The notes below the pieces were generated by a model, which saw nothing but the letters and a program-made list of their open reading frames with translations, did not search any database and was not told where the DNA came from. Both the position numbers and the translations under genes were made by a program. A DNA stretch of 28,259 nt from a virus: the IMG/VR virus record IMGVR_UViG_3300032561_000100, positions 1-28,259 of that record. One strand, given 5' to 3'. This document shows positions 5,957 through 25,396 of the stretch, piece after piece. Numbering within the stretch: the first letter of the stretch is position 1; each line of letters opens with the position of its first letter.

Positions 5957-6505
5957 CTATTTAAAAGCTGGACCAGTTGCCCAGCATGTTGCTGTGTATC
6001 GTTTGCCTTTAGTAACTTCGGTAACGCGGTGCTCTAAAACGGAAGGAAAAATAATTATGCTTCCTTGTGGCAGCTTAGGATTTAGATTTGGGTTTATGGC
6101 CAGTTCTAAATTACCGCCTTCAAAACTATCCGGATTACTTAAGAATGCTATAGCCGATAGTTTACGCTGTTTATTCGCTTTATCGGGTGGAAAACTATCA
6201 ATATGCCATTTATAATGTCCGCCGTTCTGGTATTTGGCTATCTGAATATCCTCTACCCCATCAATATCAAAGCGCCAATCTATCTTATTTACGGCGTTTA
6301 TGTGGGTTTGAAGTACGCAACCAATGATGCTCATGGGCGTTAGGAACGCTATATCTGTTTTACGAGTGGGATTTTCCACACGGTTTTCTTGGTCGCGCCC
6401 AACTTTGGCATTGTGCGCTTGATCCCAAGGTGTAGTTTTAATGATGTATTCGCACATAGAACGTGGAATAACTTTCTCGGAGACGTAGTAGTAGTTGTTT
6501 AGCAT
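5957..6505 (-). CDS. 2-oxoglutarate/Fe(II)-dependent oxygenase (prolyl 4-hydroxylase-like)
   Basis: A 182-residue protein with the double-stranded beta-helix fold of the P4H/PKHD group. The iron ligands are visible as HxD (WHIDSF, His101 and Asp103) and a distal His159 in LEHRV, with Arg169 in KGKRY as the likely 2-oxoglutarate ligand. Upstream, IQIAKYQNGGHYKW and SAIAFLSNPDSFEGGNLEL match the usual strands of the family. The length is that of a lone catalytic domain. These enzymes hydroxylate amino-acid side chains or nucleobases; the substrate is unknown. It sits between the packaging genes and portal, with a 1-base overlap with the preceding gene (TAATG), so it is co-expressed with virion genes. 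Confidence 0.85.
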   Translation of the reverse strand: MLNNYYYVSEKVIPRSMCEYIIKTTPWDQAHNAKVGRDQENRVENPTRKTDIAFLTPMSIIGCVLQTHINAVNKIDWRFDIDGVEDIQIAKYQNGGHYKWHIDSFPPDKANKQRKLSAIAFLSNPDSFEGGNLELAINPNLNPKLPQGSIIIFPSVLEHRVTEVTKGKRYTATCWATGPAFK

Positions 6506-11988: not shown

Positions 11989-12585
11989 ATGACAATTAGA
12001 GAAATACTAGACAGACCAGCTGTCGAAACAGGCGAAGAAATAAATGTCGACTGGCGGGAGGTCGAAAAGCTGTATCGTCTGCGTTTGGAATATAACAGCT
12101 CGCGACCCCAACCCCGCCCTACGGCACTCACCATACCTAACAGTTTCATCAGGCACAACCCGCTAGAGTATGACGACCAAGTAAGGGTTAATGCGTTACC
12201 CGAAGGGGTTGATCGTGACTCGATGGTTAGAGTCATCTTGCGTAATGGCGAGAGGTCGAGTTATTTTGCGCGCCATTATAGCTGGGGTGATGACGAGGAC
12301 ATCAATGATACGGCGATCGTGGCGTATCGGGTTATCAAGGTACCTAAACTGTGGATAGACTGGGGCGCTTTACACACCCGCAGAAGTTTGGAGACCACCC
12401 CCATCACAACGCCCGTTATCCCGCCGCACCCCGCCTTAGAGGGTAATCCGTTAGTAAAGGTGTGGCTTAGAGATCAGCGCAGACCACAGCGGTATGCCCA
12501 GCATGCTAATCAGTGGTTTTGGGGCTTGAATGGTACAACTAACGACATCATGAAGTACCGATTTTTACACGAAGGAGAGATGTGA
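11989..12585 (+). CDS. Protein with duplicated phage domain, unknown function
   Basis: A 198-residue protein whose second half contains two related units: residues 79-115 (MVRVILRNGERSSYF, …HYSWG…, IVAYRV) and 155-192 (LVKVWLRDQRRPQRYA, …QWFWG…, IMKYRF). Each has V-x-V-x-LR(N/D), a YA/FA-H turn, an aromatic-Trp core and a final ND-I--YR strand. This compact beta-strand unit, ending in (D)II-YR, is common in phage proteins of unknown role. The start has AAGGA 8 bases upstream. Its stop overlaps the next ATG (TGATG), so it is coupled to the small membrane protein that precedes the amidoligase. Confidence 0.6.
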   Translation: MTIREILDRPAVETGEEINVDWREVEKLYRLRLEYNSSRPQPRPTALTIPNSFIRHNPLEYDDQVRVNALPEGVDRDSMVRVILRNGERSSYFARHYSWGDDEDINDTAIVAYRVIKVPKLWIDWGALHTRRSLETTPITTPVIPPHPALEGNPLVKVWLRDQRRPQRYAQHANQWFWGLNGTTNDIMKYRFLHEGEM

Positions 12586-12689
12586 TGAGAGCATTTGATT
12601 TAGCAGGTCGGCTTCTTTTATTATTCACAACCATATTTATAGGAGGGCAAATCGTTAGATTTTTATTAACAAAACTAATAGGAGGGTAG
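12585..12689 (+). CDS. 34-residue membrane protein
   Basis: Starts MRAFDLAGRLLLLFTTIFIG, followed by GGQIVRFLLTKLIGG. Residues about 8-20 form one hydrophobic helix after a short charged start; the rest is amphipathic. AAGGAGAG lies before the ATG, and the stop of the upstream gene overlaps by one base. It immediately precedes the amidoligase and is one of several miniature membrane proteins interleaved with the ligase genes; a membrane anchor role for the complex is inferred, not shown. Confidence 0.5.
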   Translation: MRAFDLAGRLLLLFTTIFIGGQIVRFLLTKLIGG

Positions 12690-12692
12690 GTT

Positions 12693-14294
12693 ATGCCGTT
12701 AACTTTTACTAGGGGTACAGACGGCACTCCAACAATGATATACACAGTACCACAAACAACAGCAACATTTACATACACAAACGAAGGAGTTACAGATATG
12801 CCAGTACCAACATATACATCCGAACAAATCCGTGCTATGGAATTAAAGCGTGAGAATGCGACAACGGAGATGACTCGTAGCTACTATGGGATTATGCTCA
12901 ACCACATGACCCGACCACATATATGGTCAATCGCAGAGGCTTTAGGTCACGCTAAGTACATTATCAAGAACAACCTTGGTAAGGATGAGAAGCATAGTAG
13001 GTTCCATAGAGAAGCCCGCAGTGCGTACGAAACTCTTATGACTAGACGGCGTGAGTTCTATTCGTTTGGGGTTGAGGCTCGTGAGGCTTTTCGTAATCAA
13101 GACCACAGAAGGCTAGTCGAGATGCTTAACGATGAACCTGAGATCCGTAATCAGCATGGGTCTACTAACTGGTGCGACATACTCAACGACACTGATAAGT
13201 TTCCCGATGCTCCGAATTACGATTATTGTTCTGACTGTGACTACATAGAAGACGAAGAAGACGGCTCTTGGGTTTACAACGGCGACCGCTGGGTGTGCTC
13301 ATCTTGTCGTGATAATAACTATCGCTGGTCTGACTATCACGATACAGTAGTGGCAGACGATGAAGAAGAACCTTATGATGAAGAAGATGATGACGATGAT
13401 GACGATGATAACGACAGCAGTCTTATCGGGGGATACCACAGTAGTAGACGCAAGCTAGGTCTGATACCTACAAAATTCACTCAGCGTGCTACGCCTGTCT
13501 ATATGGGCTTAGAGTTAGAGATGGAGATAGATGACGATGAGAGCCGCCATGACAAGGCTGAGGAGTTGCTTACTTCTATCGGTACACACAAGTCTGACAT
13601 TAGCGGTAATCAGTCTACATATAACTACTGCTTGCTAGAGGAAGATGGTTCACTTAGCAACGGCTTCGAGATGGTTACTGGCTATACTGGTCTAGATGTT
13701 CATGCCAAGCAGTTAGAGTTCTTCAAGCGTAGATGGTCTGGTGTCAGGTCACACGATACAAAGACTTGTGGTCTTCATGTGCATATCTGCAAGAAGGGTA
13801 TGACTATGTTTCATGCCGCTAAGTTAATCTTGTTTATGCACGACAGCCGTAATCAAAGACTGTTCCGTGCTATCGCAAGGCGTGACGCTAACCGCTACTC
13901 ACAAGTTAAGAACAAGACTGCTGACTACTCTTGGCTTAAGTATGGTAGACGCAATGGTATGCAACGCTTGAACGAAGACCGCTATGAGTCAGTTAACTTC
14001 CAACCAGAGAAGACTGTCGAGTTCCGATTATTCAAGGGCTCACTGCGCTACGAAACAATCATGGCTTGCTTAGAGTTTACATATGCAACATGGTTCTTTA
14101 CGCGTGACACAGGGCAACAAGACTTAACTGCTGACAACTTCCTCAAGTACATCAGCCAACCTAGCCAACGCAAGGACACAGCCCATCTACGGTCATTCTT
14201 GCGGTCTAAGGGATTCAGCCTAGATAAAGCAGCCATCGTCAAGGTTAACCCACGCATCGAGAAACAAGCCGAGCAACAGACAGCAGAAGTATGA
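12693..14294 (+). CDS. Amidoligase (COOH-NH2 ligase family) with zinc ribbon
   Basis: A 533-residue protein whose C-terminal half carries the amidoligase (glutamine synthetase/gamma-glutamylcysteine synthetase-like) signatures: GLELEMEI (272-279), EEDGSLSNGFEMVT (316-329), CGLHVHIC (359-366) and VNFQPEKTVEFRLFKGSL (434-451). The family joins a carboxylate to an amine with ATP; phage and bacterial members are predicted to modify peptides or small metabolites. Upstream are a Cys4 zinc ribbon (C179, C182, C202, C205) and an acidic Asp run (232-239), suggesting a substrate-binding or partner-binding arm. Two possible starts exist: ATG 12693 (AGGAGG 7 bases before) and ATG 12798 (GAAGGAG 8 bases before). 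It is followed by glutamine amidotransferase-like and ATP-grasp genes. Confidence 0.85.
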   Translation: MPLTFTRGTDGTPTMIYTVPQTTATFTYTNEGVTDMPVPTYTSEQIRAMELKRENATTEMTRSYYGIMLNHMTRPHIWSIAEALGHAKYIIKNNLGKDEKHSRFHREARSAYETLMTRRREFYSFGVEAREAFRNQDHRRLVEMLNDEPEIRNQHGSTNWCDILNDTDKFPDAPNYDYCSDCDYIEDEEDGSWVYNGDRWVCSSCRDNNYRWSDYHDTVVADDEEEPYDEEDDDDDDDDNDSSLIGGYHSSRRKLGLIPTKFTQRATPVYMGLELEMEIDDDESRHDKAEELLTSIGTHKSDISGNQSTYNYCLLEEDGSLSNGFEMVTGYTGLDVHAKQLEFFKRRWSGVRSHDTKTCGLHVHICKKGMTMFHAAKLILFMHDSRNQRLFRAIARRDANRYSQVKNKTADYSWLKYGRRNGMQRLNEDRYESVNFQPEKTVEFRLFKGSLRYETIMACLEFTYATWFFTRDTGQQDLTADNFLKYISQPSQRKDTAHLRSFLRSKGFSLDKAAIVKVNPRIEKQAEQQTAEV

Positions 14295-14304
14295 GCAACA
14301 TAGC

Positions 14305-14322
14305 GGGACAGGTTTCTGTCCC
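14305..14322 (+). repeat. Palindromic element copy 7 (GGGACAG-GTTT-CTGTCCC)
   Basis: Perfect 7-bp arms in the 77-base gap between the amidoligase and glutamine amidotransferase genes; last copy in the window. Confidence 0.8.
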
Positions 14323-14371
14323 AAGTAATACACAACAAACGATCAATCAAACAAAGAGAAGGATTTAAATT

Positions 14372-15574
14372 ATGTGTTTATTATTAACTCAACCAGCTTC
14401 AGCTCCATCTTTAACTCAAGAGTGGTTAGAGGACTTTTACTTATCTAACTCAGACGGCGTAGGTGTTATGCGTGTAGTAGACGGCGAACTGCTTATTGAG
14501 AAGATTCTGCCTAAGAATGCCCAAGAGTTTGTTGACTTCTACCTTAACCACATCGATGGTCACGATTGCGCGTTCCACTTGCGTATGAAAACGCATGGCA
14601 ATATCGACTTAGAGAACTGCCATCCGTATGAGGTGTTTAATCAATCTGAGCATGGTCGTTCTATGTGGCTCATGCATAATGGCGTGCTATCTACTGGCAA
14701 CCAAGCAGATGTTACCAAGTCCGATACATGGCATTACATTCGCGACTATCTGCGCCCTATGCTTGCTAACAACTTAGATTTTGCGTTTACCGAAGCGTTT
14801 GCGGAAATCATCGGCGACCATATCGGCGCATCTAACAAGTTTGTAATCATGGACAGCTTAGGTAATGTACAGATTGTCAATCAAGGCTCAGGTGTATTTT
14901 GGGGCGGTCGTTGGTTATCTAATACATATGCGTGGTCTAGCCCTACTAATGTACCCAAGGATTTCAAAGATGACTTAGGCTTGGCTCTACAACAAATCGA
15001 GGCAGCACCATATAAAGCGTCGTGGAAATCAGGTGGTAGCTCATATAAAAGTTCTGCCAGTCGTTGGAATGGTTATGGCGCTGGGTATGGTTCAGGCTAC
15101 GATGATTATGATGATGAGTGGACTGACTATGAGTATGACTATTCTAAGAAGCAGTATGTAAAGAAAGTCACAACAGTTAGTAAATTGCCTGCACCGCAAA
15201 ACCAATACGATCGCCCTGTGTATGTACCGCCTGTTGGCAGTCCGTTTGAGTATGAAGATGAGGATGCTGACTACGAGCAAGATTCACTGCGTAGCCCTGA
15301 GTTTGGTGTATCGCCTGAGGAGATTGATGATGTGATGGAGGACTTAGTGTTCGAGATCGAGCAACAGTTTGAGATCAAGTACATCAGTCGCACCGCCGCA
15401 TATGAGTTCATCGAAGAGTTTGGTATCGACAACTTTATGGAGATCAGCTACATGGCGTTAGATGAGATGATTGACGAGGGCTGGTATGTTCGCATCTTGA
15501 CTGACTTCGCGACTGCTCGTGAGGCGTTCCCTTGGCTTGAGCGTACTAAGCCTGTTAAAACAATGATTTCTTAA
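14372..15574 (+). CDS. Class II glutamine amidotransferase-like (Ntn hydrolase) protein
   Basis: A 400-residue protein beginning MCLLL: removal of Met exposes Cys2 as the N-terminal nucleophile of class II glutamine amidotransferases. Matching core motifs are DGVGVM (28-33), FHLRMKTHG with Arg71, His75 and Gly76, ENCHPY (81-86), MHNGVLS (101-107) and KSDT (116-119). Such domains release ammonia from glutamine for a partner ligase, or hydrolyse amides. Residues about 215-310 are Gly/Ser/Tyr/Asp-rich and probably disordered; the last 90 residues form an acidic helical domain. Located directly between the amidoligase and ATP-grasp genes, it probably works with one or both. AAGGA precedes the ATG. 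Whether it is a true amidotransferase or a peptidase-like Ntn enzyme cannot be told from sequence. Confidence 0.82.
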   Translation: MCLLLTQPASAPSLTQEWLEDFYLSNSDGVGVMRVVDGELLIEKILPKNAQEFVDFYLNHIDGHDCAFHLRMKTHGNIDLENCHPYEVFNQSEHGRSMWLMHNGVLSTGNQADVTKSDTWHYIRDYLRPMLANNLDFAFTEAFAEIIGDHIGASNKFVIMDSLGNVQIVNQGSGVFWGGRWLSNTYAWSSPTNVPKDFKDDLGLALQQIEAAPYKASWKSGGSSYKSSASRWNGYGAGYGSGYDDYDDEWTDYEYDYSKKQYVKKVTTVSKLPAPQNQYDRPVYVPPVGSPFEYEDEDADYEQDSLRSPEFGVSPEEIDDVMEDLVFEIEQQFEIKYISRTAAYEFIEEFGIDNFMEISYMALDEMIDEGWYVRILTDFATAREAFPWLERTKPVKTMIS

Positions 15575-15589
15575 CAACTGGAGGATTAT

Positions 15590-15823
15590 ATGGAATTTAG
15601 TATTGCTGAAATGTTTTTATTATGCTGGTCTGTTAGTGCGACCATTGCGTTTGTTTACTTTAATCAGATGTTCCGTAAGGCTATGAGAGGAGGCGTTATT
15701 TTATGCGTGATTATTAGTGATATAGCTGAAGGTAAAGCTACTGTTAAAAAGACTGCTGATGGCAGGATAACCATCACTCGTGAAGACGATGGTACTGAGT
15801 TTGTTCTAAAGGAGGTTGACTAA
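15590..15823 (+). CDS. Small membrane protein in the ligase island
   Basis: A 77-residue protein. Residues 6-25 (AEMFLLCWSVSATIAFVYF) form a transmembrane helix with N-terminal acidic residue, followed by a basic turn (RKAMRG), a second moderately hydrophobic stretch, and a hydrophilic tail with EGKATVKKTADGRITI. GGAGG precedes the ATG by 5 bases, and its stop overlaps the ATP-grasp start by one base (TAATG). Placement between Ntn-type and ATP-grasp genes suggests a membrane-associated partner of the ligases; function is not known. Confidence 0.6.
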   Translation: MEFSIAEMFLLCWSVSATIAFVYFNQMFRKAMRGGVILCVIISDIAEGKATVKKTADGRITITREDDGTEFVLKEVD

Positions 15824-16254
15824 TGTTAAGCACATCAAGGGTAGCAATAGCCCCGTATAAGCGGGGCAGTAAAAGCGCAAGATTACTGCGCGATGCGTTA
15901 ACGCAGGAGCTAGGGCGTAGGGTTTTATTTATTGCACCCGAGCGTGTAGCCTTGTGTAAGCCAAGCCGTATTGTTATTAACTGGGGCAGTAGCATGGTCT
16001 ATGGTTCAAGAGCTACGGTCATCAATAATTCTGTTTGCGTGGGGGTTGCGGCAAATAAACTTAGCACGCTTAACTCTTTTGCCTTCCGCAATATCCCTCA
16101 CCCCGACTACACAACTGACAAGCAGCAAGCCGTTGATTGGTTGACTCAAGGGCACAAGGTAGTGTGTTACCGCTCACTCAGGGCAAGGCATTGTTGTAGC
16201 CAAACAACAGGAGGATATAGTAGATGCACCGCTATATACCAAATACATAATTAA
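15823..16254 (+). CDS. ATP-grasp ligase, first part before the frameshift
   Basis: The frame encodes an ATP-grasp enzyme up to about residue 115 and then meaningless sequence until the stop at 16254. Visible family features are IVINWGSS (preATP-grasp fold), a VGVAANKLSTLNSF segment that matches the conserved NK before the ATP-binding lobe, HPDYTTDKQQAVDWL, and GHKVVC, the first strand of the ATP lobe. The remainder of the domain continues in another frame (16163-16585). ATP-grasp ligases form amide bonds via acyl-phosphate. The ribosome binding site AAAGGAGG ends 8 bases before the ATG. Either the gene is broken, the sequence has an error, or translation shifts frame. Confidence 0.75.
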   Translation: MLSTSRVAIAPYKRGSKSARLLRDALTQELGRRVLFIAPERVALCKPSRIVINWGSSMVYGSRATVINNSVCVGVAANKLSTLNSFAFRNIPHPDYTTDKQQAVDWLTQGHKVVCYRSLRARHCCSQTTGGYSRCTAIYQIHN

Positions 16255-16585
16255 AAAGAAGGAGTTTCGTGTTCATGTATTTAGGAGTAAAATTATTGAC
16301 ATTCAAGAAAAACGGAGGAGTTCAACTGCTAGTAGCCACCATCCTTATATTCGTAATCATGCTAATGGATATGTATTTTGCAGAGGGGACATTGACGAGC
16401 CGATTGATTTACGACCTACTGCGGTATCCGCAGTACAGGCTCTTGGCTTAGACTTCGGCGCAGTAGATATCGTATGGAATGAGGCGCAGAATAAGTGCTA
16501 CGCACTAGAAGTAAATACTGCGTGTGGTCTAGAGGGCTCAACTGTACATAAATATGTTCAAGCAATTAAGGAGGTTGTATGTTGA
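16163..16585 (+). pseudogene. ATP-grasp ligase, second part in the +1 frame
   Basis: Starting near 16163 in the +1 frame, the sequence reads CVTAHSGQGIVVAKQQ (Gly-rich ATP-binding loop), DAPLYTKYI, KKKEFRVHVF, IDIQEKRRS, HPYIRNHANGYVFC, QALGLDFGAVDIVW and ALEVNTACGLEGS, the full C-terminal ATP-grasp core, including the Lys/Glu and Asn residues that hold ATP and metal. The frame has no ATG, GTG or TTG between the TAG at 16160-16162 and its stop at 16583-16585, so it cannot be a separate gene: it must be joined to the upstream part. The conserved spacing suggests the break is around 16163-16178, with possibly a few missing bases. Its stop overlaps the next start by 7 bases. Confidence 0.75.
16565..16581 (+). 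promoter_or_regulatory. Repeated ribosome binding cassette, copy 1
   Basis: ATTAAGGAGGTTGTATG spans the end of the ATP-grasp gene and the start of the 55-residue gene. The 16-base TTAAGGAGGTTGTATG recurs exactly at 16743 and 16901, each time initiating the next gene. Confidence 0.7.
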
Positions 16586-16746
16586 TAGCTTTAGGGTTTT
16601 TATTTTTAGCGTGGTTTGGCGTGTTTGTGTTCTTGTGGGGTTGGGCACTAGAACATATTGATGGTTGGTGGGGTGGACTGCTTCCTGTGGGTTGGTTTAT
16701 TTTAGCCCCACTTACTGTGGCTCAGATTTGTATTTGGTTTAGTTAA
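16579..16746 (+). CDS. 55-residue membrane protein
   Basis: Starts MLIALGFLFLAWFGVFVFLW; a first transmembrane helix (2-22), a polar turn (ALEHIDG), then a second hydrophobic stretch (about 31-54: WGGLLPVGWFILAPLTV). Aromatic-rich, typical of tiny phage membrane proteins. It overlaps the ATP-grasp reading by 7 bases and begins with the AAGGAGG cassette. Its location within the ligase island suggests membrane association of the system. Confidence 0.6.
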   Translation: MLIALGFLFLAWFGVFVFLWGWALEHIDGWWGGLLPVGWFILAPLTVAQICIWFS

Positions 16747-16758
16747 GGAGGTTGTATG
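16743..16758 (+). promoter_or_regulatory. Repeated ribosome binding cassette, copy 2
   Basis: TTAAGGAGGTTGTATG, identical to the cassettes ending at 16581 and 16916; here it initiates the 53-residue gene. Confidence 0.7.
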
Positions 16759-16917
16759 AGCAGATGGAATGTATTAGTAACTGGGTGTGCGTATGTAGAA
16801 GTGGAGGCAGATAACTGCGATGATGCCGAAGCTGAAGCTGGTAAGCACTTTAATGTTTTGGACATGCAGTTTGATTTTATATGTGAGGAAGCTGATCGAA
16901 TTAAGGAGGTTGTATGA
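16756..16917 (+). CDS. 53-residue protein of unknown function
   Basis: Starts MSRWNVLVTGCAYVEVEADN; acidic, with a likely beta-strand core (WNVLVTG…YVEVEA) followed by a helix (DDAEAEAGKHF), a pattern seen in small phage proteins that bind an unknown partner. It contains four Cys/His-type residues (C11, C21, H31, C43), not in a clear metal pattern. It begins with the repeated ribosome binding cassette and its stop overlaps the next ATG by 4 bases. Confidence 0.55.
   Translation: MSRWNVLVTGCAYVEVEADNCDDAEAEAGKHFNVLDMQFDFICEEADRIKEVV
16901..16916 (+). promoter_or_regulatory. Repeated ribosome binding cassette, copy 3
   Basis: TTAAGGAGGTTGTATG again; initiates the 106-residue gene at 16914. 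As in copy 1, the upstream protein ends IKEVV because the cassette is also coding. Confidence 0.7.
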
Positions 16918-17234
16918 GTAAAGCAATAACAAAAGTGCAGTTAAGATTTATGTGGAACGACGGCAAGATAGAAGAGTTTCCCGAGAATCTTTTAACTAGC
17001 GATTCCGATTTAGGTCTGGAGTTACAAAGCTACGCTGTGGATTATGAAGCGTTGCGAAATGATAACGAAGCAGAATACGATTCGTTTACCGACTGGCTAC
17101 CCATACCAAAAGACTATGACGAGTACATGGATAGCGGTATGGTAGATACATTGTGGGAAGCGGGTTTTATAGCAGGAAAGATGCACGAGTTAAGTAAGTT
17201 ACATAAACAATTCAAGGAGAAAAGTAATGTTTGA
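16914..17234 (+). CDS. Protein of unknown function
   Basis: A 106-residue acidic protein (MSKAITKVQLRFMWNDGKIE…) with no family recognised. The first 25 residues look like beta-strands; residues 45-106 are helical with many Asp, Glu and Tyr. Overlaps the next gene (membrane SPFH-like) by 8 bases, so it is translationally coupled to it. Confidence 0.6.
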   Translation: MSKAITKVQLRFMWNDGKIEEFPENLLTSDSDLGLELQSYAVDYEALRNDNEAEYDSFTDWLPIPKDYDEYMDSGMVDTLWEAGFIAGKMHELSKLHKQFKEKSNV

Positions 17235-17619
17235 TATAGAAGATCATATTGGTAAGGTTGGTTTAAGCATAGTGGTAGCGGTGCCTTTGTTCATCGGTAG
17301 TTGTATGTATGGTATGCCTATGTACAATGTGTACCACCAAAAGATGGAAGGCGAAGCTGAACTAGCTAAGGCTAACTTCAGTAAGCAAGTCATGGTACAA
17401 GAAGCCCAAGCCAAGATGGATGCAGCAACTATGTTAGCTAATGCAGAAGTAGAACGAGCAAAGGGTGTGGCAAAGGCTAATCAAATCATTGGCGATAGCT
17501 TGAAGAACAATGAAGATTACTTGCGCTACTTGTTTGTGAATAACCTAGAGCATACGCAGAACCAAGTTATATACATTCCAACCGAAGCAAACCTACCTAT
17601 TTTGGAAAGGAGAAAGTAA
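17227..17619 (+). CDS. SPFH/stomatin C-terminal-like membrane protein
   Basis: A 130-residue protein with one hydrophobic segment at 12-33 (GLSIVVAVPLFIGSCMYGMP), then a long amphipathic helix (37-90) with AEAELA/AEVERAKG repeats, and a C-terminus (NQVIYIPTEANLPIL) like the ends of stomatin/prohibitin-type proteins. The SPFH (band 7) core itself is missing, so it is a shortened membrane anchor plus coiled coil. Such proteins form ring-like membrane scaffolds in the host family. It follows the ligase island on the same transcript; an assembly or membrane-organising role is a guess. Confidence 0.65.
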   Translation: MFDIEDHIGKVGLSIVVAVPLFIGSCMYGMPMYNVYHQKMEGEAELAKANFSKQVMVQEAQAKMDAATMLANAEVERAKGVAKANQIIGDSLKNNEDYLRYLFVNNLEHTQNQVIYIPTEANLPILERRK

Positions 17620-18216: not shown

Positions 18217-18671
18217 TGAGCATATTAAAAATAGCTGATGAAATAGACGACTTGCTAAAAGAACAGGAGCAACTACCTTGGGGAACCAAGCAAGTATATT
18301 TAGACCTAGCCGCTACCATTATACGTAAGCAACAAGCTGAAATAGAGGCGTTGAAAAAAGACAACAAAGAGCTACACGCCATTGCACAAAGAATGGCTAT
18401 GGCAGAGTCCGACGCTAGAAAGTCATTGCAATGGTTTAAAGATGCACAAGAAAGACAAACTGAACCAGTAGCATGGATGCGAACTAATAAACAATGGCGC
18501 AAAGAAGTATCTTGGGTAGAAAAAGAAGGATTTGAAATCCCACTCTACACCCATCCAGCAGACCTAACAGATAAGGAAATACTCGATGTTGAAAAAAGGT
18601 TGCGAAACAATGGGGATTTTTGTGAATTGCATTTTGCTAGAGCAATACTAAGAAAGGCACAAGAGAAATGA
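18216..18671 (+). CDS. Phage protein with EPVAW...PLYTHP motif, copy A
   Basis: A 151-residue protein. Residues about 40-70 are coiled coil, then TEPVAWM (85-91) and IPLYTHP (112-118), a pairing frequent in proteobacterial phage and prophage proteins of unknown function, then a helix ending FARAILRKAQEK. The ATG at 18216 overlaps the previous stop (TGATG); a TTG extension to 18204 is unnecessary. The next gene is a shorter relative with an identical 40-base 3' end (18633-18672), so this pair arose by tandem duplication. Confidence 0.6.
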   Translation: MSILKIADEIDDLLKEQEQLPWGTKQVYLDLAATIIRKQQAEIEALKKDNKELHAIAQRMAMAESDARKSLQWFKDAQERQTEPVAWMRTNKQWRKEVSWVEKEGFEIPLYTHPADLTDKEILDVEKRLRNNGDFCELHFARAILRKAQEK

Positions 18672-18672
18672 A
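18633..18672 (+). repeat. 40-bp direct repeat, copy 1
   Basis: Identical to 18947-18986; covers the last codons (FARAILRKAQEK) and stop of copy A of the EPVAW pair and the start of the next gene. A shorter 15-base relict (GCACAAGAGAAATGA) ends the following gene at 19171-19185. Confidence 0.9.
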
Positions 18673-18985
18673 CAATGAACCAGTAGCGTGGATGAACCCT
18701 AAAACTTTAGAGTGTGGCTATGGTGGTGATGTTGATTGGGAAGATACAGGCTGTATTCCACTCTACACCCATCCGCACCCTGACAATTTAGGACTTGCAT
18801 TAAGCATCATTGACCAACAAAAACTAAAGATTGAAGCATTAAAAGCAAAGACACTAACAGATGAGGAAATAGCAGACATAATTTCTAGTGGTGAATATTG
18901 GACATTAGATGAGCATTTAAATATTGTTTCGGTTCATTTTGATAAATTTGCTAGAGCAATACTAAGAAAGGCACAAGAGAAATGA
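18668..18985 (+). CDS. Phage protein with EPVAW...PLYTHP motif, copy B
   Basis: A 105-residue protein. NEPVAWM (3-9) and IPLYTHP (30-36) match copy A, with the stretch between the motifs almost the same, and the last 12 residues are identical. It lacks the coiled-coil region. Overlaps copy A by 4 bases. Function unknown; its value is as evidence of a recent duplication in this gene row. Confidence 0.6.
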   Translation: MNNEPVAWMNPKTLECGYGGDVDWEDTGCIPLYTHPHPDNLGLALSIIDQQKLKIEALKAKTLTDEEIADIISSGEYWTLDEHLNIVSVHFDKFARAILRKAQEK

Positions 18986-18986
18986 A
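18947..18986 (+). repeat. 40-bp direct repeat, copy 2
   Basis: Exact copy of 18633-18672, 314 bp away, at the end of copy B of the EPVAW pair. Confidence 0.9.
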
Positions 18987-24940: not shown

Positions 24941-25396
24941 ATGAGCACAAACGAAGGAGCAGGTACAGGCTATAACTGGCATACAGATGATACGGTAACT
25001 AAGATACCGTTAAGAATTCCACAACAACCCGCAATACCAGAGGCGGGTGGGATAGGCGATGTTAGTAGTACAGCCAAAGGATCAGGCGCTAGGTATAACG
25101 GAGGTAAACCGGACTTTAGTTTGATACCTTTAGTTACTCTTGAAGAAGAAGCTAGAGTATGGATGTACGGCGCTAAAAAGTACGCCGCCCATAACTGGAT
25201 GAAAGGGATGCCTTGGTCTGTCCCACTAGCGTGCGCTTTGCGCCACATTGCCGCTTGGCAGGCTGGGGAAGATATTGATTCTGAATCAGGGCAAACCCAT
25301 TTGGCTCACGCCATGTGTAATCTAAGAATGCTAATGCTTTATACAAACACATACCCCGAGGGTGACGACCGACCACCTAAGGAACTAATGCCATGA
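24941..25396 (+). CDS. MazG-like dATP/dGTP diphosphohydrolase-related protein (DUF5664-type)
   Basis: A 151-residue protein. After a Gly-rich, poorly conserved 45-residue start, the rest matches the phage DUF5664 pattern: ARYNGGKPDFSLIP, EEEARVWMYGAKKYAAHNW, CALRHIAAWQAGEDID and SESGQTHLAHAMCNLRMLML. The Glu clusters and the RH..AW..GE.D/ESG..HL.HA..N motif resemble the metal-binding site of all-alpha NTP pyrophosphohydrolases, of which a phage relative (MazZ) converts dGTP to dGMP for base-modified DNA. Its substrate here is unknown, and no purZ-like gene is visible in this window. AGGAGG lies before the ATG. Confidence 0.75.
   Translation: MSTNEGAGTGYNWHTDDTVTKIPLRIPQQPAIPEAGGIGDVSSTAKGSGARYNGGKPDFSLIPLVTLEEEARVWMYGAKKYAAHNWMKGMPWSVPLACALRHIAAWQAGEDIDSESGQTHLAHAMCNLRMLMLYTNTYPEGDDRPPKELMP

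Follow-up and report, generated by a model that had tools for sequence, protein, structure and literature searches.

A conserved amidoligase–class II amidotransferase gene pair in a viral genome record, a putative reduced variant of a known phage cassette

Amide-chemistry genes and the conserved pair

The IMG/VR virus record IMGVR_UViG_3300032561_000100, a linear record of a freshwater phage analyzed here over its whole length of 28,259 bp (the window, to which all coordinates refer), carries a group of amide-chemistry genes on the plus strand. They lie between a block of portal and terminase genes on the minus strand (3.4–8.3 kb) and a set of plus-strand genes for DNA polymerase, exonuclease and helicase that begins at 21.2 kb. 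As a first-pass annotation of this DNA had proposed, three enzymes follow one another on one strand, namely an amidoligase, then a class II glutamine amidotransferase (GAT-II) and lastly an ATP-grasp ligase, represented by the front of its gene (Table 1), and profile comparison upheld their assignment to the amidoligase, GATase II and ATP-grasp families, the second with a match just under cut-off that is supported by fold and residues. Purifying selection acts on each of the three genes, with ratios of nonsynonymous to synonymous substitution rates (dN/dS) of ~0.05–0.33, ATP-grasp included, between members of the clade of contigs that share the ATP-grasp gene (13 contigs counting a near-identical copy of the window, L002; 12 non-identical); the enzyme cassette is therefore not a chance assembly. 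A DNA-level search of named phages returned zero matches, and the PADLOC anti-phage defence models gave no match for any of four proteins.

Table 1. Features of the amide-chemistry locus and its surroundings in the window
Feature	Position	Strand	Basis
Single-transmembrane (TM) micropeptide, 34 aa (MRAFDLAGRLLLLFTTIFIGGQIVRFLLTKLIGG), Q-x-x-R after the TM segment	12585..12689	+	Hydropathy, conservation
Amidoligase (Amidoligase_2, glutamine-synthetase-like carboxylate-amine ligase)	12693..14294	+	Pfam, PHROG, motifs, predicted fold
GAT-II, N-terminal nucleophile Cys2	14372..15574	+	Pfam, catalytic residues, fold
Single-TM protein, 77 aa, accessory	15590..15823	+	Conservation
RimK-like ATP-grasp ligase gene, broken	15823..16585	+	RimK profile, intact homologues
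Spurious hydrophobic open reading frame (ORF), 60 aa, not a gene	16269..16451	+	Out of frame inside ATP-grasp C-terminal coding region
Hydrophobic protein, 55 aa, outside the conserved unit	16579..16746	+	Absent from relatives, flanking repeats
Soluble protein, 53 aa, outside the conserved unit	16756..16917	+	DNA identity, flanking repeats
SPFH/stomatin-like membrane protein, 130 aa	17227..17619	+	PHROG 11227, E 2.7e-53

The amidoligase matched Pfam PF12224 (Amidoligase_2) with an E-value of 2.9e-5 and 24.5 bits against a curated cut-off of 22, and PHROG 2443 (amidoligase) with an E-value of 2.6e-13. Its ligase motifs ExE, DxS, GxHxH and ExR are invariant across 35 sequences (invariant residues E274/E276, D318/S320, E326, H362/H364, R430 and E443/R445), and all four cysteines of a zinc-ribbon-like insert (C179, C182, C202 and C205) are invariant within the close family; dN/dS of this gene is 0.06–0.25. 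A sequence search with the amidoligase profile against solved structures found no match. The predicted structure (mean predicted local distance difference test score, pLDDT, of 80.5) has as its nearest folds YbdK (1tt4), glutamine synthetase (GS), gamma-glutamylmethylamide synthetase (GmaS), PafA and Dop, the leading matches all belonging to the GS superfamily with E-values of 4e-4 and weaker and low TM-scores of 0.2–0.37.

For GAT-II, the Pfam GATase_4 match (E 1e-3) fell slightly under the cut-off and the GlmS profile matched with the same E-value of 1e-3, and a Foldseek search with the predicted fold returned the GlmS glutaminase with probability 1.00 and an E-value of 2.4e-5 (Ntn-hydrolase fold). 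Across 37 sequences M1-C2, R71, T74-H75-G76, H84, H102-N103-G104 and D118-T119 are invariant, and of these we take Cys2, R71, T74, H75, H84, N103-G104 and D118 to be the known glutaminase residues of GlmS. As judged from the sequence, GAT-II carries a complete class II glutaminase active site. Catalytic residues and predicted fold are thus shared with GlmS, whereas the sugar isomerase domain of the latter is unmatched in GAT-II, the C-terminal part of which consists of a low-complexity, low-confidence linker followed by a helical region.

In a pairing survey that was seeded with GAT-II alone, and from which two loci cut by contig ends were left out as uninformative, all 85 informative loci had the amidoligase gene directly upstream of the GAT-II gene, the two being separated by a median of 30 bp. 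ATP-grasp, by comparison, was detected only in the clade of the window, and none was found in ten long records of other clades. The three-enzyme order that the first-pass annotation had treated as one island therefore co-occurs across loci for the amidoligase–GATase pair but in a single clade for the third enzyme: the obligate unit is amidoligase followed by GAT-II, and ATP-grasp is optional. Seven bacterial genome contigs are among the loci with the pair, Polynucleobacter included. The Polynucleobacter genomes L138, L139 and L140 hold it, which hints that the host of the window may be a related freshwater betaproteobacterium. An integrase gene adjoins the pair in L138 and L140, and integrated elements therefore also use it; in L138 a gene whose product has a terminase-like match lies close by as well.

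The broken ATP-grasp gene and the membrane peptides

The ATP-grasp protein matched PHROG 2599 (E 3e-16) and, over profile positions 43–239, the RimK structure profile (E 5.7e-7). It is shorter than RimK and divergent, scoring well under the RimK-family cut-offs, with RimK (ribosomal protein S6 glutamate ligase) and MptN as its closest families and with invariant metal/ATP residues D219, E233 and N235. The first-pass annotation had the family right but missed an 11-nt deletion at ~16166 that disrupts the reading frame as assembled; the deletion is either a genuine variant or an artefact of assembly. The gene is open from 15823 to 16254 and then, in another phase and with no start of its own, from ~16163 to 16585, so that the 143-aa ORF at 15823–16254 holds only the N-terminal part of the ligase and its tail is out-of-frame sequence. 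Contig L002, with 99.9% identity to the window across 10,574 bp, carries 11 extra bases here and encodes an intact 257-aa ATP-grasp protein. Of the 12 other contigs (73–75% identity), 11 have the full-length gene, and in the twelfth, L051, the contig end cuts it off. Programmed frameshifting, considered as a cause of the split, was ruled out because L002 and the full-length relatives are intact. The 60-aa hydrophobic ORF at 16269–16451 is an artefact, since ATP-grasp coding runs through it in another phase. Given that the copy in the window is broken and that most relatives are without ATP-grasp, this ligase is probably dispensable.

The membrane proteins that the first-pass annotation saw as interleaved partners of the enzymes differed in how well they are kept. 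The 34-aa micropeptide (hydropathy 2.04 over 19 residues) is present in 10 of the 13 clade contigs, the near-identical copy counted, and so stands as a partner; the 77-aa protein does so in part, being present in 8 of 13 (7 of the 12 non-identical contigs, at 45–52% identity) and, as a family, in 9 of 57 distinct amidoligase–GATase loci. The 55-aa and SPFH-like proteins failed this comparison (see below). Small single-TM ORFs immediately precede the amidoligase gene more often than they precede other large ORFs (17/56 against 17/238; p ~1e-5), and single-TM peptides of ~32–37 aa with Q-x-x-R occupy this place in 12 of the 57 distinct loci, including contigs L038, L004, L114, L017 and L042. The motif Q[AVILT][VIAT]R occurs in 12 of 34 nearby small TM ORFs versus 3 of 1117 others, a ratio that overstates the significance because the motif was picked after inspecting the peptides. 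Nine loci of named phages that carry other amidoligase clusters yielded no QxxR micropeptide. These features of the peptides suggest that, for some members of the family, the micropeptide brings the amidoligase to the membrane. A second kind of micropeptide, ending in LSI, takes the same place upstream of the amidoligase in other loci.

Relation to known cassettes and possible function

Phage clusters of this type are not without precedent. A predicted seven-gene peptidoglycan modification cassette has been described in the podoviruses RIO-1, phiEco32, PA11, LUZ24, CW02 and others and assigned to peptidoglycan side chains (PMC5498523); the term peptidoglycan modification cassette or module is used elsewhere as well (PMC11945000), and a further paper, citing Iyer 2009, speaks of cell-wall modification against superinfection (PMC10580990). 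The first-pass annotation was right in describing the products of such clusters as predictions still awaiting proof. What it overlooked is the conserved amidoligase–GATase pair and the precedent for the gene order in named phages: in UFV-P2 the order is amidoligase, HNH endonuclease gene, GATase, a 72-aa protein and ATP-grasp (PMC3890496), which is the enzyme order of the window except that the HNH endonuclease gene splits the amidoligase from the GATase.

The classic cassette and the window clade share an operon that encodes an amidoligase, a class II GATase and a RimK-like ATP-grasp enzyme, interspersed with small proteins. In profile comparisons the amidoligases of the two are homologous with an E-value of 3.4e-10 and the GATases with an E-value of 1.7e-7, and the ATP-grasp proteins of the classic cassette are 39–45% identical to the window type, relatives of which are found in >300 named phage records. 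The three-enzyme operon of the classic cassette is thus present in the clade, although the ATP-grasp copy of the window itself is broken. On the other hand, the COOH-NH2 ligase of the classic cassette (PF14395) was found in 0 of 16 related records while being detected in 4 of 4 classic phages searched as a positive control, and the conserved ~190-aa protein that precedes the classic amidoligase is also missing from the window type. The 198-aa protein encoded upstream in the window was considered as its counterpart and found unsupported (hhalign probability 0.1%, E 0.41). Gamma-glutamyl cyclotransferase was found in 0 of 8 related virus records; CW02 has it, TC6 and VPp1 do not, and it is therefore not strictly defining for the cassette. 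In addition, the amidoligase of the window is larger than that of the classic cassette, has the four-cysteine insert and is followed directly by the GATase. The same adjacent pair in the same order is found in the Methylophilales phages MEP401/402, the Mycobacterium phage Marvin and phage ctgrD200, in which it is only ~20–36% identical to the pair of the window and has no ATP-grasp annotated beside it; to this arrangement the window clade adds ATP-grasp and the QxxR micropeptide. Since the COOH-NH2 ligase, the ~190-aa protein and the cyclotransferase are all missing, the window type reads, on sequence grounds, as a reduced variant that combines a Marvin/MEP401-type pair with a LUZ24/PA11-type ATP-grasp. 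The cassette is real and largely known, and what the window holds is a variant of it, not a new category.

As to function, we tentatively favor a glutamine-fed amide synthetase whose target would be the carboxylate of a peptide, most likely one of the host envelope, a reading to which we give a little less than even weight. The strict gene pairing, the invariant glutaminase and ligase residues, the fold matches, the purifying selection and the homology to the classic cassette speak for it. GAT-II would split glutamine by way of its N-terminal Cys2 and supply ammonia, presumably passed to the amidoligase, which would activate a carboxylate with ATP and convert it to an amide or join it to another amine. 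The RimK-like ATP-grasp enzyme added in this phage clade could contribute an optional further step, the coupling of an amino acid to a carboxylate. The likeliest substrate would be a host envelope peptide, that is, a peptidoglycan stem peptide or precursor, and in some family members the tiny membrane peptide may keep the amidoligase close to the membrane. A cell-wall substrate is proposed on the basis of the prediction in the literature, the presence of the micropeptide and the parallel with the larger cassette; any effect on superinfection is likewise inferred. Several points weigh against this reading. The literature searched holds no measurement of a substrate or product and no biochemical report for such phage clusters; the TM-scores of the fold searches are low (0.2–0.5); the class II glutaminase could instead be a peptidase or an amide hydrolase; the micropeptide is missing from most loci of the family; and no dedicated envelope protein is conserved across it, small genes (< ~220 aa) occurring in at most 9 of the 57 distinct loci. 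More speculatively, the QxxR micropeptide, the zinc-ribbon amidoligase and the dedicated glutaminase might together form a membrane-placed synthetase that amidates a cell-wall precursor, as a minimal form of the cassette. Such a minimal form, which we regard as a long shot, would need no ATP-grasp or second ligase and would serve both freshwater phages and the integrated elements of Polynucleobacter, the latter without the micropeptide.

Other substrates were weighed against the envelope. The ligases could instead tag proteins, modifying a host or virion protein by addition of an amino acid or by side-chain amidation and so redirecting host machinery; the kinship of ATP-grasp to RimK and MptN, the appearance of the Pup-tagging enzymes PafA and Dop among the amidoligase fold matches and the position of the enzyme genes upstream of the replication genes on the same strand agree with this. 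However, ATP-grasp is limited to one clade and broken in the window, and no Pup-like or other conserved tag peptide was found nearby, which makes protein tagging unlikely, if still worth considering. Somewhat less likely again is a small-molecule route, in which the pair would make a soluble gamma-glutamyl-type or amidated metabolite (an osmolyte, antioxidant or antibacterial) during infection. The glutathione-synthase-like YbdK and GmaS are indeed among the nearest folds to the amidoligase, and EgtC, of ergothioneine synthesis, is also among the fold matches of GAT-II, but the related virus records are without the cyclotransferase, as noted above, and no widely conserved small gene (< ~220 aa) lies beside the pair, larger metabolic neighbors not having been systematically surveyed.

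The ligases might also amidate or amino-acylate a modified DNA base, a chemistry possible in principle for such enzymes, and the window does encode a dATP/dGTP diphosphohydrolase at 24941–25396 (PF18909, E 8.6e-30), of a type also known from phages with 2-aminoadenine or other modified bases. Base hypermodification is nevertheless improbable, because relatives of thymidylate synthase and PurZ are absent: a thymidylate-synthase-like gene was found in 0 of 8 related virus records, and PurZ/adenylosuccinate synthetase in neither the window nor 9 relatives, some of the records in both searches being fragments. We consider it least probable of all that one of the tiny proteins is the modified precursor in a system like those for ribosomally synthesized and post-translationally modified peptides (RiPPs). 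Several tiny ORFs do lie between the enzymes and ATP-grasp ligases are known to make graspetides, but each tiny ORF is kept in at most 9 of the 57 loci, the 60-aa ORF is spurious, and the near identity of the 53-aa ORF to its relatives reflects recent DNA exchange.

With the system pared down to two genes that always occur together and encode full sets of active-site residues, its reaction becomes easy to test directly by biochemistry, and that reaction, once known, would tell whether phages alter the cell wall to keep out competitors.

Exchangeable genes and other features of the window

The genes downstream of ATP-grasp show a different pattern from the enzymes. The first-pass annotation had counted the 55-aa protein and the SPFH-like protein as members of the cluster, and both fail the conservation comparison, being found beside the enzymes in 0 of the 12 non-identical clade contigs and only in the near-identical copy. 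The SPFH-like protein has ~57% identical copies in jumbo Klebsiella/Serratia phages, and its gene is an independent moron unlinked to the enzymes. The 55-aa gene is flanked by two exact copies of AAGGAGGTTGTATG, which comprises a ribosome-binding site and start, and is probably an exchangeable cassette. The 53-aa gene, flanked by copies at 16745 and 16903, is 95–98% identical to L044/L050 at the DNA level while the neighboring genes are ~68–81% identical; because its DNA is also this similar, it is a recent exchange, and the idea that it encodes a highly constrained precursor peptide was dropped. In all, three exact copies of AAGGAGGTTGTATG (16568–16581, 16745–16758 and 16903–16916) each precede a successive tiny gene, against a chance expectation of 0.15 even with 2 mismatches, and this pattern, together with the raised identity of the 53-aa gene, suggests that tiny genes are swapped at shared start sites.

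Elsewhere in the window, a 2-oxoglutarate (2OG)-Fe(II) oxygenase gene at 5957–6505 is flanked by the portal and terminase genes, and a 152-aa protein encoded at 2781–3239 matches the GroES co-chaperonin (E 1.1e-7). Finally, a 40-bp direct repeat (18633–18672 and 18947–18986) lies at the ends of consecutive small genes, whose products share the C-terminal tail ARAILRKAQEK, and is possibly another exchange point.

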